A DNA stretch of 64,000 nt from NCBI GenBank assembly GCA_012026795.1, contig VEPM01000010.1, positions 1 to 64,000 on the forward strand, given 5' to 3'. A model generated the notes under the pieces. That model did no database searches and was not told the DNA's origin. It saw only the letters and a program-made list of their open reading frames with translations. The position numbers were made by a program, and so were the translations under genes. This document shows positions 5,002 through 10,159 of the stretch, one piece after another. How positions within the stretch are numbered: position 1 is the stretch's first letter; each line of letters starts with the position of its first letter. Source of the stretch: Candidatus Methanoperedens sp. Lineage in GTDB: Archaea; Halobacteriota; Methanosarcinia; Methanosarcinales; Methanoperedenaceae.

Positions 5002-5412
5002 TTAAATAAACTCTAATAGTTCTTTTGTAGTGTAGATTTTTATATGATTTTGTTTTTGAAATCCTTTATCCTCGCTCCATACCCCATCAACTTTGGTTTT
5101 CATTGCAAGTGCTAAAAAAGGTGCATCATCAGGATCAATATCTTTCATGATATCTTTAGCCTGCACATAGCAATCGGCATATTCGTCTTTTGGATAAATG
5201 GTGATTCGGGAAAATAGCATGTCCATTACATATTGCATATCCTTTGATGCAAGTTTTGACTTCTTTTTGATAATATCGCTATGTTTTAAGATTTCAGTGA
5301 AAGTGTATTCTGGCGCCATAAATTCAATATTTGAATTTATCAGAATATGACGTCGAATAGAGTTGGATATGAGGGAGGATATTATAATATTGGTATCTAT
5401 TACCAGTCTCAT
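5002..5412 (-). CDS. PIN-domain ribonuclease toxin (VapC-like)
   Basis: A 136-residue PIN-domain protein, the family of Mg2+-dependent ribonucleases that act as toxins of VapBC modules. Acidic positions expected of a PIN fold are visible: Asp6 in VIDTNI, Glu in FTEIL (about 39), the DIDPDDAPFLALA block (about 93-105), and Asp in WSEDKGF (about 114). It starts nine bases after the stop of the ribbon-helix-helix-like gene, the usual antitoxin-first order. The target RNA cannot be told from sequence. The pair lies between two direct repeats, suggesting a mobile cassette. Confidence 0.85.
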   Translation of the reverse strand: MRLVIDTNIIISSLISNSIRRHILINSNIEFMAPEYTFTEILKHSDIIKKKSKLASKDMQYVMDMLFSRITIYPKDEYADCYVQAKDIMKDIDPDDAPFLALAMKTKVDGVWSEDKGFQKQNHIKIYTTKELLEFI

Positions 5413-5421
5413 TTTCCCAAC

Positions 5422-5646
5422 TCATTCGATGTCGTGTTGTTCCCGTATGGACTTTTTTATAAGTTTCCCTATCTCGGCAGCATCTTTCTCGGTCAATTCA
5501 CTTTTCTCCAATATAGTATCCACTAACTGGATTTTCCTGGCATACTCCCACATGGCATTTCTTGCAATGACACTCCATTTAATTTCATTGTGGTGTTTTA
5601 TGACTGTGTAGAGGTCGTCCGGGATAGATAATGTCATTGTTGGCAT
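5422..5646 (-). CDS. ribbon-helix-helix-like antitoxin (VapB-like)
   Basis: A 74-residue protein that begins TMTLSIPDDLYTVIKHH, a beta strand followed by helix typical of ribbon-helix-helix DNA-binding domains, with KWSVIARNAMWEYARK as the second helix. The acidic/basic C-terminal tail (about residues 45-74) would bind and neutralise the PIN toxin encoded nine bases downstream. Family members usually bind their own promoter and repress the operon; a TATA-like stretch (ATATATAT) lies directly upstream at about 5665-5680. Confidence 0.75.
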   Translation of the reverse strand: MPTMTLSIPDDLYTVIKHHNEIKWSVIARNAMWEYARKIQLVDTILEKSELTEKDAAEIGKLIKKSIREQHDIE

Positions 5647-5866: not shown

Positions 5867-8113
5867 TTATTTTATACTGTTAATAAATGTATAGTCAGAA
5901 GCTAATTCTTTGAATTTTCTAAAAATATCATCTTCTAAATAAGAATCTATAAAGACACATTTTCCATTTGTATATGAACACATGTATTGAAAGAACTGAT
6001 CACTATGTTCACTATGTCTAGTTTGCATTCCATAAACTTTGATTTTTTTGTCAACTAGATGCTTCACTTGTTGTTCCCAATCAATATTACTAGGACAATC
6101 TGAAAATGGATGAGGGTAGGAGTCACCAATAAAAAAAACGACTTTATTTGCTTGATTCGACCAATTTAAATTTGAGATAAAGAATAAAGCATCTTCATAC
6201 GCTTCAGGTGCATCTCCACCATTAGTCCTTTCTAAATTAGCTATGAAATCTATTATCACATTTACATTTTCTGATAATTTATACGGTTTTATAATATAAG
6301 GATCTGGCTTACTTTTATCATGATCTCCTATAGCGATTACGCCAATTCTTATCTTGTTATCAATTCTTACAATTTCCTGAATAAACCTAATAATAATTTT
6401 TTCAATATTAATAAGGATTTCATGCATACTTCCTGTAGTATCTATTGCAAAAACGATATCTTGAATACTATTTTCATTACCCTTGAATCTATCAAAAAAG
6501 GAGATTAGTGCCTTCTCAAATTCATTTTCTCTTTCACTACACGGACTAAGATCATCTATTAACGTCACATTACTGTAACGCCGCTCTACCATTTTTCTTA
6601 GCACTGGATACCTTTTAAGGTCTTCTGGAACGGAGAATGGACGATAATTTACGAGAAAACATCTTCCATTTTCATTACGAAGCAGAGGTATATAACGACG
6701 TGAAATAGTATCTTCAAGTGTTTCAAACAATTGATAACTTGCCCCTGCTTTACACTCGATTATCAATTCTGGCACTAATCTTTTCGAAGCAAATTTTTTC
6801 TCTTCCCCAGCAAATATGCTAAAATCAAAAGATTCATTTTGGCAAATAGTACGGCAGAATAGCCAATCGGGCATGGCACCAGATTTTTCCTTTTTCTCAA
6901 AAGGAGATAGCCAATTGGGTATGGCACCAGATTTAACTTTTTTCTCAAAAGGAAACATGAAATTAGAAAACTTGACCCCAGTATATACAGATAAACGACA
7001 AATTGAAGTGTCAATCCAAAGCACTGGATTAGAAAGGTTTCCTTGCCCATTGCCAGGAAGACACCAACAACCGTCATCTGTTAGATTGCTAATTGTTAAT
7101 TGATATGGATCGAAGCTGCGACATGCTTTAATCAGAATCCATAATTCATATAAATCGTTACGATATCGCCAGTATGGTAGCTTAAGAAATTCCTTGAGGT
7201 ATTCAACTTTGGCATTTTGAGAACTATAACACTTAGATAATACATCAAGAATTTTATCTAGACGATTAATTGTCCAAAGCTGCTCAGGTCTTTTAGAATT
7301 TTGACCTAGAAGGCAATCAGAAAGAGCTTTACCCAAATAAGTTGATTTTTTTTTGTGAATATCAATAAATTTTTCTATTGCACTCTTTAATTCAACCGGA
7401 AGTGGATGATTATGTTTGGTAGCTCTTTCATCATTATTCTTAATTTGATATAACTGATCAATAGAATCATTTTTCGCTTCTAGATTTTTCCTTATCCTTG
7501 TATCTATTTTGATTATATTTTCTAGGTATTTAGTGATTTTCTGGCATTTTTCTTTACATTGTTTCAAACAATCTGGTTTGCATTTTTTAGTTCCATCGGA
7601 AATACCATCACAAAAAACAATGATGTATGAATATTCTAGCTCCTTCTGAATTGAGAGTAATAAATCAATATCCCATATGTTTATGTCAATATTAGTAATT
7701 ATTTTTTGCCATTCTTTGGGCATATGTGACAAATCAATCGGAAATGTGACGTCTGATCCTATTCTTAGTTGAATTACTGATTTTGCAATACCAACAGAAT
7801 TCTTTTGAAAATTCAAGAAAGTATATATTTCCATTAGCATTTTTACAAATGGTTGAACTAATGTCGCAAGAAAACCAAAAAAATCATCTAATTTTATATT
7901 TTCAACAAGGTAAGTTTCGATTTCATCGCGCGTATATAATTCATTTGGAATATTAAAATGATTCCTAATCTCATTGAGAATTTCAATTTCGGGAGTTATT
8001 TTGCTTGTTTTTGATAATTTTTTTGTGGGAATCTCAAGTGATTCAAGAATTGCTTTGTACTCTATCGAAGAATTGGTAATAATCATCGCCTCCTTTTTTG
8101 TTTCATTATCCAA
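5867..8113 (-). CDS. large protein with possible PD-(D/E)XK nuclease and von Willebrand A domains
   Basis: A protein of up to 748 residues. The C-terminal part (about 550-740) is a von Willebrand A domain with an intact metal-binding DTTGSM near 558 and TNGGDAPEAYEDAL further on. The middle (about 300-500) has the order seen in restriction-like nucleases: YRNDLYELWILIKA, then PDWL (Asp about 416), then IIECKAG (Glu453-x-Lys455), then a YRPF strand. A five-Cys cluster (about 168-190) could bind metal. The start is a TTG at 8113; an ATG at 8086 with AAGGAGG only two bases away is an alternative. It lies downstream of the KwaA/KwaB-like pair on the same strand in AT-rich DNA. The nuclease call is inferred from motifs, not established. 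Confidence 0.6.
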   Translation of the reverse strand: MDNETKKEAMIITNSSIEYKAILESLEIPTKKLSKTSKITPEIEILNEIRNHFNIPNELYTRDEIETYLVENIKLDDFFGFLATLVQPFVKMLMEIYTFLNFQKNSVGIAKSVIQLRIGSDVTFPIDLSHMPKEWQKIITNIDINIWDIDLLLSIQKELEYSYIIVFCDGISDGTKKCKPDCLKQCKEKCQKITKYLENIIKIDTRIRKNLEAKNDSIDQLYQIKNNDERATKHNHPLPVELKSAIEKFIDIHKKKSTYLGKALSDCLLGQNSKRPEQLWTINRLDKILDVLSKCYSSQNAKVEYLKEFLKLPYWRYRNDLYELWILIKACRSFDPYQLTISNLTDDGCWCLPGNGQGNLSNPVLWIDTSICRLSVYTGVKFSNFMFPFEKKVKSGAIPNWLSPFEKKEKSGAMPDWLFCRTICQNESFDFSIFAGEEKKFASKRLVPELIIECKAGASYQLFETLEDTISRRYIPLLRNENGRCFLVNYRPFSVPEDLKRYPVLRKMVERRYSNVTLIDDLSPCSERENEFEKALISFFDRFKGNENSIQDIVFAIDTTGSMHEILINIEKIIIRFIQEIVRIDNKIRIGVIAIGDHDKSKPDPYIIKPYKLSENVNVIIDFIANLERTNGGDAPEAYEDALFFISNLNWSNQANKVVFFIGDSYPHPFSDCPSNIDWEQQVKHLVDKKIKVYGMQTRHSEHSDQFFQYMCSYTNGKCVFIDSYLEDDIFRKFKELASDYTFINSIK
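6861..6954 (-). repeat. 48-bp tandem duplication inside the vWA gene
   Basis: Two 46-base copies start at 6861 and 6909, a period of 48 bases, and match at about 40 of 46 positions. They encode two 16-residue units, FEKKVKSGAIPNWLSP and FEKKEKSGAMPDWLFC. The frame is kept. Only the second unit in the protein has Asp at the Pro-Asp position. Confidence 0.85.
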
Positions 8114-8301: not shown

Positions 8302-9558
8302 TTATGTCAGCTCTTCAAAATCTGAACTGATGCCTTCTCTATCAAGAAGGCAAGTTTTTGCAGTTCCATCTTTTATGATTTTCAGCAACCATCTCAATTG
8401 TTGAGGTCCTTCTGGAATTATTTTTATATTTCCATTTTTAATGTTATATGCTATTTTTTTAGCATTTAGTGCTCTTTTTATTGGATTATCATTAGCCGAC
8501 GTCAATTCTGTTTTTAATTTTAAAACACATTCTTTTAATCGAACAAAATTAGCAATATTATAACAATTTCTTTGAACTGCTGCTGTTGCTTTTGCATTGC
8601 TCCAATCTATAAAATCCATACCCTTTTTAAGTACATCATATGCATTTTTATAGCTTTCGAGATATTCATATAAATCTTCAAATTTCTTACTATTTGTAAT
8701 AAAAAAGAAGGAATGTGGATATATATTAAGCTCACCATTTTCAATTCTCGCATTAAATTCATCGGTTCTATCACCATCAATTTTTAGGTTTACCTTGGTT
8801 TTTTTATCGTTAATACTTATAGAAAGAAAATTTTTTTCTGTACATATTTTAATTGTATTATCTGAATCAATTTTTTCAATTTTTGCTGTTTCTACCCAAT
8901 CAAGACCGAAATGCTGTTTTAGAAATTCTGTGAGTCGATAGCTGTCGTTTCCAGGAATTTTATTCCAGCTAAACAAATATGAACCATCCACAAATGCAGT
9001 TATATCAAAATTATCATCTAGTAGCAAATAGTCTTTATTGTTTAAGAATTTAATTCTTTGCCTGTCATCCCAAAAATTAATAGAATATTGATTTTTCTTT
9101 ACATAGTAAGTTTGGCTTATAGATTTTAGAAGAATTATTTTTTTATCCCCAGATTGATTTAAATTAATCTCTATTATAAAAAATACGTTTTCAAATTTAT
9201 TTGTTTTTAAAAAGTCATGAATGTCTTTTGTTTCAACAGCATCTGATATGCGATTTGTTCTTCTTAAATCAGTTTCATTCATTATCTTATAGAACCAACC
9301 GCTATCATCATCACTTTTATTTAAATCCTTAATATTAAATCCTCCCTCCATATAATCAAATACTATTTGATGATAACTTTTTAATATTTTAATCAGTTCT
9401 AATTGGCTTTCCTCTGAGGATATGCTTAAATTTTTAGTTTTCCATATGCCTCCTTTTTTTTCCTTGCCATATAAGGTGACTAACGGTTCAATCATCCCAT
9501 TTGAAATTATATAGTGATACAATTCTTTCTCCAATTTTCCAATATCTTCTCTTGACAA
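8302..9558 (-). CDS. KwaB-like (DUF4868-like) protein of a candidate Kiwa system
   Basis: A soluble 418-residue protein. Residues about 125-200 form a strand-rich block (FFIIEINLNQSGDKKIILLK, then YLLLDDNFDITAFVDGSYLF), and the C-terminus has RWLLKIIKDG before the end. This pattern resembles the DUF4868 family of KwaB, the DNA-binding partner in the Kiwa anti-phage system, but the protein is about 100 residues longer than the typical KwaB of about 315. Translation starts at a TTG with a strong AAGGAGG seven bases upstream, and that site lies in the last codons of the preceding membrane-protein gene. The gene pair order (membrane protein, then this) is that of Kiwa. The family assignment is by pattern memory and needs a profile search. 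Confidence 0.5.
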   Translation of the reverse strand: MSREDIGKLEKELYHYIISNGMIEPLVTLYGKEKKGGIWKTKNLSISSEESQLELIKILKSYHQIVFDYMEGGFNIKDLNKSDDDSGWFYKIMNETDLRRTNRISDAVETKDIHDFLKTNKFENVFFIIEINLNQSGDKKIILLKSISQTYYVKKNQYSINFWDDRQRIKFLNNKDYLLLDDNFDITAFVDGSYLFSWNKIPGNDSYRLTEFLKQHFGLDWVETAKIEKIDSDNTIKICTEKNFLSISINDKKTKVNLKIDGDRTDEFNARIENGELNIYPHSFFFITNSKKFEDLYEYLESYKNAYDVLKKGMDFIDWSNAKATAAVQRNCYNIANFVRLKECVLKLKTELTSANDNPIKRALNAKKIAYNIKNGNIKIIPEGPQQLRWLLKIIKDGTAKTCLLDREGISSDFEELT

Positions 9559-9559
9559 T

Positions 9560-10159
9560 TCAAATCCTCCTTATAAAAAAGGTATTTTCATCAATTTTAT
9601 CTACAATAGTTTTACTAGCTATTGATGTTAGATTCAATTTTTTATCAGATAACAAAACGCCTTCAAATTCAATTCCTAATTCTTCATACTGAAAGTTTAT
9701 TTTATTTATAGAATACCCAGATAATACTAACATCGGATTTATTACAACTAGATTCGTATTAATATAAAAAATCAATATAAAAACTATTGTTGTGAGCATA
9801 GTAAGAAGTTTGACCCAATTATTTGCCGAAATGTATAATGAAAAAGAATCAGTTCCAAATAAAGGAATGACCATTGTAATCAGGTAAGAAATTATTTCTT
9901 GACTTCCGCTTGATACAGATTTAATATAGATAGTAATCTTGCTTTTTTTCGAACCAAATTCATAATTTTTCCTAAAAGAATGGATAGAAAACAATGAGAT
10001 CAAAATAAAAAGTATATAAATAATTATTATCACGACTATAGGATTTTTTGATTCATCTGATTTTAGGTTTAAATAATTATTAATTTCGCCCAAGAATAGA
10101 ATTAAAAAAAGTAGAAAATATGACGAGAAAAATAACATTATTTTGCCGATTATTTTCAT
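9560..10159 (-). CDS. KwaA-like four-helix membrane protein of a candidate Kiwa system
   Basis: A 199-residue protein with four hydrophobic segments (about 6-25, 42-62, 88-106 and 113-140) and a cytoplasmic tail of about 55 residues. The length, the four helices, and the motif INPMLVLSGY just after the last helix followed by a strand-rich tail fit KwaA, the membrane sensor of Kiwa defence systems. Its stop codon is one base from the start of the KwaB-like gene, so translation is coupled. The region is markedly AT-rich compared with flanking rli and copA, as expected for an acquired island. A generic small membrane protein is the alternative reading. Confidence 0.5.
   Translation of the reverse strand: MKIIGKIMLFFSSYFLLFLILFLGEINNYLNLKSDESKNPIVVIIIIYILFILISLFSIHSFRKNYEFGSKKSKITIYIKSVSSGSQEIISYLITMVIPLFGTDSFSLYISANNWVKLLTMLTTIVFILIFYINTNLVVINPMLVLSGYSINKINFQYEELGIEFEGVLLSDKKLNLTSIASKTIVDKIDENTFFIRRI

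Follow-up and report, generated by a model that had tools for sequence, protein, structure and literature searches.

The 64,000-nucleotide stretch of Candidatus Methanoperedens DNA analyzed here (hereafter, the window) very probably contains a Kiwa-like gene pair in which the kwaB partner carries an in-frame, protein-coding, non-autonomous insertion of the IS66 type that was presumably moved in trans. An earlier note on this DNA had proposed a Kiwa-type defence pair at positions 8302-10159. Judging from sequence comparisons, this locus indeed appears to be a Kiwa-like kwaA-kwaB pair, with KwaA well supported and KwaB recognized through uninterrupted homologues, whereas the 418-aa second protein is itself unmatched.

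Both open reading frames of the claimed pair are present on the minus strand. The kwaA-like gene (9560..10159) starts with ATG and encodes a membrane protein of 199 aa, and a one-base gap separates its TGA stop from the TTG start of the kwaB-like gene (8302..9558), which encodes 418 aa with the in-frame insertion at residues 194-280. The AAGGAGG ribosome-binding-type site that the two genes were said to share is found on the same strand (9566..9572), within the last codons of the kwaA-like gene and 7 bases upstream of the TTG, and the AT-richness of the locus is borne out as well, with a windowed GC content of 0.23-0.31 over 8.0-10.25 kb vs 0.43-0.48 over 10.5-12.2 kb. The profile check suggested for the 199-aa protein places it in the KwaA family: the PADLOC KwaA profile matches at 4.2e-16 and the solved KwaA structure 9mrg at 6e-4 in a PDB search, and the NCBIfam KwaA score is 64.5 bits, below the curated cut-off of 100 bits. 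The four helices attributed to this protein did not emerge from a crude hydropathy test, which gives three strong membrane windows (3-21, 41-59 and 122-140). KwaA-family matches are found in 17 of 185 genomes of the order, and no close KwaA relatives were found in viral contigs. According to the published description (PMC12904381), Kiwa acts through KwaA tetramers and KwaB dimers, with DNA binding without cutting.

Several features of the neighbourhood are worth recording. On the strand of the kwaB-like gene and some 190 bases downstream of it lies a gene for a 748-aa protein (5867-8113, minus strand) whose C terminus holds a von Willebrand A domain (Pfam VWA_4, 7e-7) and whose N-terminal part is without assignment; it was rejected as a third component of the system because it does not adjoin the pair in the homologous locus L002. 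A PIN-domain gene (PF10130, 6.6e-28; 5002-5646, minus strand), preceded by a 74-aa gene with which it resembles a toxin-antitoxin pair, belongs to the same AT-rich island as kwaA-kwaB. Elsewhere, the KwaA-KwaB pairs in seven loci (L023, L024, L026, L035, L036, L038 and L039) adjoin genes that, by sequence reading, appear to encode type I restriction specificity subunits, as would be expected within a defence island.

The insertion itself is a 262-bp protein-coding, MITE-like element (8719..8980, minus strand; Y-L-F-S-W ... L-N-I-Y), which encodes a module of 87 aa, residues 194-280 of the 418-aa protein. It is bounded by a left terminal inverted repeat ATATTTGTTTAGCT (8967..8980, minus strand; family consensus GTATTTGTTTAGCT), which matches the right end at 11 of 14 positions, and a right terminal inverted repeat with the reverse complement ATATATATTAAGCT (8719..8732, minus strand; family consensus GTATATGTTTAGCT). 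Outside these are the two 8-bp target-site duplications, both decayed and matching at 3 of 8 positions, namely GATGGTTC on the left (8981..8988, minus strand) and CCACATTC on the right (8711..8718, minus strand). In the kwaB of the related genome G013 (L002), the duplication, read by eye, is TCACAATC/TCTCAATC, with 7 of 8 positions matching.

The family behind this copy comprises 148 distinct instances, 127 of them full-length (the 21 partial ones were excluded from the count of full elements), and removal of 26 same-site repeats from the 127 leaves 101 non-orthologous copies. Copies start with GTATTTGTTTAGCTGGGA and finish with GGTAAGCTAAACATATAC, which form a 14-base inverted repeat with one mismatch in the consensus; in the 101 copies, the ends are identical at a mean of 9.8 of 14 bases. 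The left and right flanks of these copies match over exactly 8 bp: each of positions 0-7 shows 47-59% agreement against the expected 28-40%, and the adjacent positions are at background. Perfect 8/8 duplications occur in 6 of the 101 copies vs 0.09 expected, and duplications with at least 6 of 8 matches in 32 vs 2.4 expected. The modal length, 262 bp, is shared by 71 of the 101 copies and, since the element together with its duplication adds 262+8=270 bases, that is, 90 codons, the host frame is kept. In all 71 copies of this length the module frame is open, and in 52 it is the sole open frame of six. We regard the element as an IS66-type MITE that reads as one open frame from end to end. An intein was considered and rejected: the hallmarks of inteins are a splicing nucleophile at position 1 and a terminal His-Asn, whereas the module begins with Tyr-Leu-Phe and ends with Asn-Ile-Tyr, so that the intein end residues are absent.

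What could have moved such an element is suggested by the end pattern GTATNTGTTTAGCT, which occurs 45 times in the 31 genomes of the genus vs a single occurrence for the reversed control. Two of these occurrences bound a 1615-bp element in a relative: its 14-bp ends are identical, its duplication is perfect at 8/8 (AAAAAAAC), and it encodes a transposase of 451 aa that belongs to the IS66 family (PF03050, DDE_Tnp_IS66; E 4.7e-29). A search with this transposase retrieved two more complete elements, of 1464 and 1466 bp, with ends that read GTATTTGTATAGCT or differ from it by one change and with duplications GCCTTATT and GATTTTTT, both 8/8, as well as two fragments; overall, matching elements are found in 5 of the 31 genus genomes. 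The module protein and the transposase protein are unrelated and, therefore, the link to IS66 rests on the 14-bp ends and the length of the duplication. Lone 14-base ends were also seen outside the module (L212, L214, L217, L220, L222 and L223), several of them continuing with IS66-type transposon-end bases; these may be decayed transposon remnants or contig-edge copies.

The module is by no means peculiar to kwaB. Searching 60 relatives with the 418-aa protein yields matches in 46, almost all of them to residues ~189-285 only, and the open frames that host the module range from 114 to 7205 aa. In the genus of the window, 30 of 31 genomes have at least two module matches, and the window's own genome has 16 further ones, most of which have diverged from the window copy (25-61% identity), in hosts that, by sequence reading, include a TPR protein, a patatin, a subtilase, lipoproteins and three neighbouring tail/baseplate-like genes, among others. 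Across the family, the element interrupts kwaB, patatin, DNA primase, CDC48, Cas3, HsdR and other genes in frame; 11 of the 19 hosts scanned have a Pfam match, Cas3, HsdR, KAP NTPases, an S-layer protein and a helicase among them, and a TIR domain is matched below threshold. Contig L085 holds two copies, each in a gene of its own, with a DNA identity of 98%, and a third at 92-93%; between copies that differ in both genome and host, identity is as high as 88%. Such similarity between copies at separate sites suggests, indirectly, mobility by transposition. For the window's own genome, local mobility is at most a possibility, given that a search for an intact transposase relative had 0 matches there at 1e-20; the copies in that genome are mostly divergent, and the duplication of the window copy has decayed to 3/8.

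Within one genus, patatin homologues are filled at one site in 5 cases and aligned empty in 14, with a difference of 89-90 residues; some of these homologues are paralogues (genome G000 has one filled and one empty), and three (L318, L323 and L325) that were excluded by a motif filter split like the empty ones. The CDC48 homologue from an ANME-2 record aligns with residues 5-377 and 387-725 of the solved archaeal VCP-like ATPase 5g4f, leaving over query residues 374-467, which places the module between positions 377 and 387 of that structure; the DNA primase small subunit is likewise split, with a further unaligned stretch. In a sample of 392 genomes from the phylum, 48 have module matches. 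Module-bearing records belong to Candidatus Methanoperedens, ANME-2, Methanosarcina, Methanophagales/ANME-1 and Altiarchaeota-type archaea, and three bins labelled bacterial, which may be contaminated, also hold the module; no relatives were found in collections of plasmids, phages or viral contigs.

Some individual arrangements deserve mention. The three neighbouring tail/baseplate-like genes (L062, contig G000:C8, 3164-11173, minus strand) each have a module copy of their own, and contig G007:C14 looks similar. Tandem copies occur within one host gene at L059:2281-3819 and L122:3676-4689, the second copy in L059 lying inside or directly behind the first. At a decayed copy in L066 (G000:C14, 2240-4272, minus strand), stops split the host gene in two, and a similar-looking protein, intact at 827 aa and with several modules, is seen in L009. 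Many genomes of family f10 share a ~1050-aa protein with one module copy, apparently an old insertion inherited in a Methanophagales-type lineage.

The association of the element with reading frames is close. In a first census, 126 of 128 copies are stop-free and 14 are not open over 20 codons on both sides, these being nine with fewer than 20 open codons upstream (L005, L004, L240, L259, L258, L260, L243, L306 and L300), one at a contig edge (L256), two with a short right side (L003 and the truncated L219) and two with stops (L066 and L301). A second census avoided the bias of protein searching by taking its loci from DNA similarity or from the end pattern and included 111 distinct copies, each with 150 or more positions, in regions that span most of the DNA-search matches. 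By this count, 110 of 111 copies are stop-free, 98 are open for at least 20 codons on both sides (compared with 25% of random positions), 110 are open for at least 40 codons on at least one side, and none is closed on both sides or isolated outside a reading frame. Selection against gene-breaking insertions would account for the fact that copies within genes are not out of frame, but not for the lack of intergenic copies.

The protein product has the features of a folded domain. The AlphaFold2 model of the module (75 rows; pLDDT 94.2, pTM 0.82) consists of two helices and a sheet, with six strands in all and one near each end; from the order of the strands and the tolerance of the insertion sites, we infer that the two ends are probably adjacent in space. 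The fold has no PDB match below E 0.001, and the module belongs to no Pfam family (23 copies searched, best E 0.0082). A frataxin-like identity was considered and is not claimed (E 0.06, TM about 0.4, VIA Z 4.4). In simple pairwise estimates, the omega of the insert is 0.12-0.58, plus one value of 0.9, in ten same-site pairs and 0.28-1.14 in ten different-site pairs, three of the latter at 0.99-1.14; for kwaB, the insert is at 0.28 vs 0.50 for the host, and for patatin, at 0.36-0.9 vs 0.14-0.29. These values suggest that constraint on the inserted module at the level of protein is moderate to weak but, the pairwise omega being mixed, we claim neither a purely selfish nor a purely useful element.

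So could the module be a beneficial accessory domain that ordinary recombination disseminated and host selection maintained, rather than a transposon passenger? The nearly universal lack of stops (126 of 128 copies) and the almost invariable in-frame position, same-site omega values that lie below 1 for every one of the ten pairs, the confident predicted fold and the constraint on the kwaB insert, which is not weaker than that on its host, are all compatible with this possibility. We nevertheless consider it rather unlikely, because it leaves aside the exact 8-bp target duplications and inverted ends, the autonomous transposons with the same ends, and the fact that unrelated hosts contain near-identical copies, 3 of the 10 different-site pairs having an omega close to 1. 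The duplications, the matching transposons and the near-identical copies indicate that the module moves as DNA, although it may be of use once inserted.

The identity of the host protein in the window requires separate consideration. Profile searches with the 418-aa protein, whole or in two pieces, retrieved neither DUF4868/KwaB nor any other family, contrary to what had been anticipated; the LLKIIKDG segment pointed out in the earlier note is present. Among the 60 relatives, a full-length homologue was found in one other genome only (G013, L002; 65%), and the genome contigs searched contain no close relatives; matches to the first 188 residues beyond the window and G013 are weak (E 0.006 and above), and the two such loci that were inspected were dropped. 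In other relatives, genes adjoining KwaA encode uninterrupted homologues, L030 (337 aa) and L032 (342 aa), which are 43-44% identical to the 418-aa protein and, when aligned to it, differ by the absence of the module alone, which sits between '..NFDITAFVDGS' and 'HSFFFIT..'; thus, kwaB is represented by 2 filled and 2 empty homologues. L030 matches the PADLOC KwaB profile PDLC00237 at 4.2e-5 over residues 159-235, around the insertion point, and L032 has no match to the PADLOC KwaB profile. Because the match of L030 spans the insertion point, the interrupted protein is probably for that reason invisible to profiles. When the uninterrupted homologues are compared, profile to profile, with six KwaB proteins, the result is 3.6e-6 (2.7e-6 with the interrupted proteins included), and decoy comparisons reach 0.064 and 0.49; the profile of L030 and L032 finds no solved KwaB. 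The model of the 418-aa protein, built from a four-row alignment, has a pLDDT of 56.7 and, at this low confidence, no PDB match below 0.001.

The second gene might accordingly be viewed as an unrelated partner of a KwaA-like membrane protein rather than a KwaB, given that the 418-aa protein and L032 lack a KwaB/DUF4868 match and that the profile of the uninterrupted pair misses the solved KwaB. This appears quite improbable in the face of the match of L030 to PDLC00237, the clear separation of the profile-profile score from both decoys, and a gene order that is the same as in other KwaA-KwaB loci. The uninterrupted homologues match KwaB and, therefore, we regard the pair as Kiwa-like; as the 418-aa protein has no KwaB profile match of its own, it is filed as such and not as a proven Kiwa. 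That this protein is a native long KwaB with a lineage-specific domain of its own, as implied by the earlier note and suggested by the occurrence of the long form at the same site in two genomes, is very hard to reconcile with the presence of the same module in dozens of unrelated proteins and with two KwaA partners of the same subfamily that lack it. The excess of about 100 residues over the usual KwaB, remarked upon in the earlier note, is real, but its cause, a transposon-derived insertion, had been missed; similarly, the strand-rich block exists but belongs to the six strands of the inserted 87-aa module, not to KwaB. An assembly artefact or chimera, a concern inasmuch as many of these genomes are metagenome bins, can be practically dismissed, the same module recurring across scores of contigs that come from many independently produced assemblies, near-complete two-contig genomes among them, along with target duplications, which assembly errors do not make.

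A simple scenario for the in-frame, trans-mobilized insertion would be as follows. An IS66-family transposase, such as those found in relatives, would act in trans to move the 262-bp element; upon landing in the right phase and orientation, the element would endow the host protein with a compact domain. The first and last strands of the module would close the loop at the insertion point, so that folding of the host protein is probably preserved. The low-confidence model of the kwaB product has the insertion point between two strands, and KwaB may thus still act with KwaA. The inserted module would then be kept under moderate to weak constraint at the protein level. More generally, and tentatively, as a proposition that we find somewhat less than probable, the element could be a transposable protein domain of archaea, foldable and frame-neutral, the spread of which is tied to reading frames by targeting, by translation-coupled insertion or by selection at the protein level.

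If true, methane-cycling archaea would have this one domain scattered through their genomes, in proteins with essential, surface and defence roles. The element as described shows how a folded domain can get into the interior of many unrelated proteins, some of them essential, with the frame unbroken, a form of protein evolution by transposition. The insertion is probably also the reason that defence genes like the window's KwaB escape profile searches, and the family supplies natural examples of positions at which an 87-aa insertion appears to be tolerated. The presence of module relatives in records of Methanosarcina, a genus with genetic tools, makes tests possible.

How do these observations relate to known systems? 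The pair resembles Kiwa in KwaA membership, gene order and the size of the insert-free partner, and differs in that the KwaB subfamily is divergent and the window copy carries an insertion. With IS66 insertion sequences in their single-transposase form, the element shares the terminal repeat GTATTTGT[T/A]TAGCT and the 8-bp duplication, whereas it lacks a transposase and encodes a protein unrelated to one. Archaeal MITEs, for example, those of Haloquadratum walsbyi, where an ISH2-type MITE family carries an ORF, are likewise non-autonomous, with inverted ends and target duplications, but the available portion of the source describes none as extending host reading frames (PMC3119063). We found no archaeal counterpart of an in-frame coding element in the open-access papers searched. 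PARCEL repeats are also mobile, repeat-coding DNA within ORFs but consist of 25-residue tandem amphipathic repeats rather than a single 87-aa domain with target duplications (PMC2996958). The nearest precedent, compared by description, is the Rickettsia palindromic elements: according to a review (PMC10969869), these are short, mobile, ORF-bearing elements of ~150 bp that occur in frame in unrelated protein genes, nearly half of the first-reported ones being located in ORFs, and Rickettsia, with these shorter elements, is singled out as a case of protein evolution by transposition. By the same comparison of descriptions, the archaeal element differs in its length of 262 bp, its 8-bp duplications and IS66-type ends, its restriction to reading frames (0 of 111 copies outside them), and its compact predicted fold.
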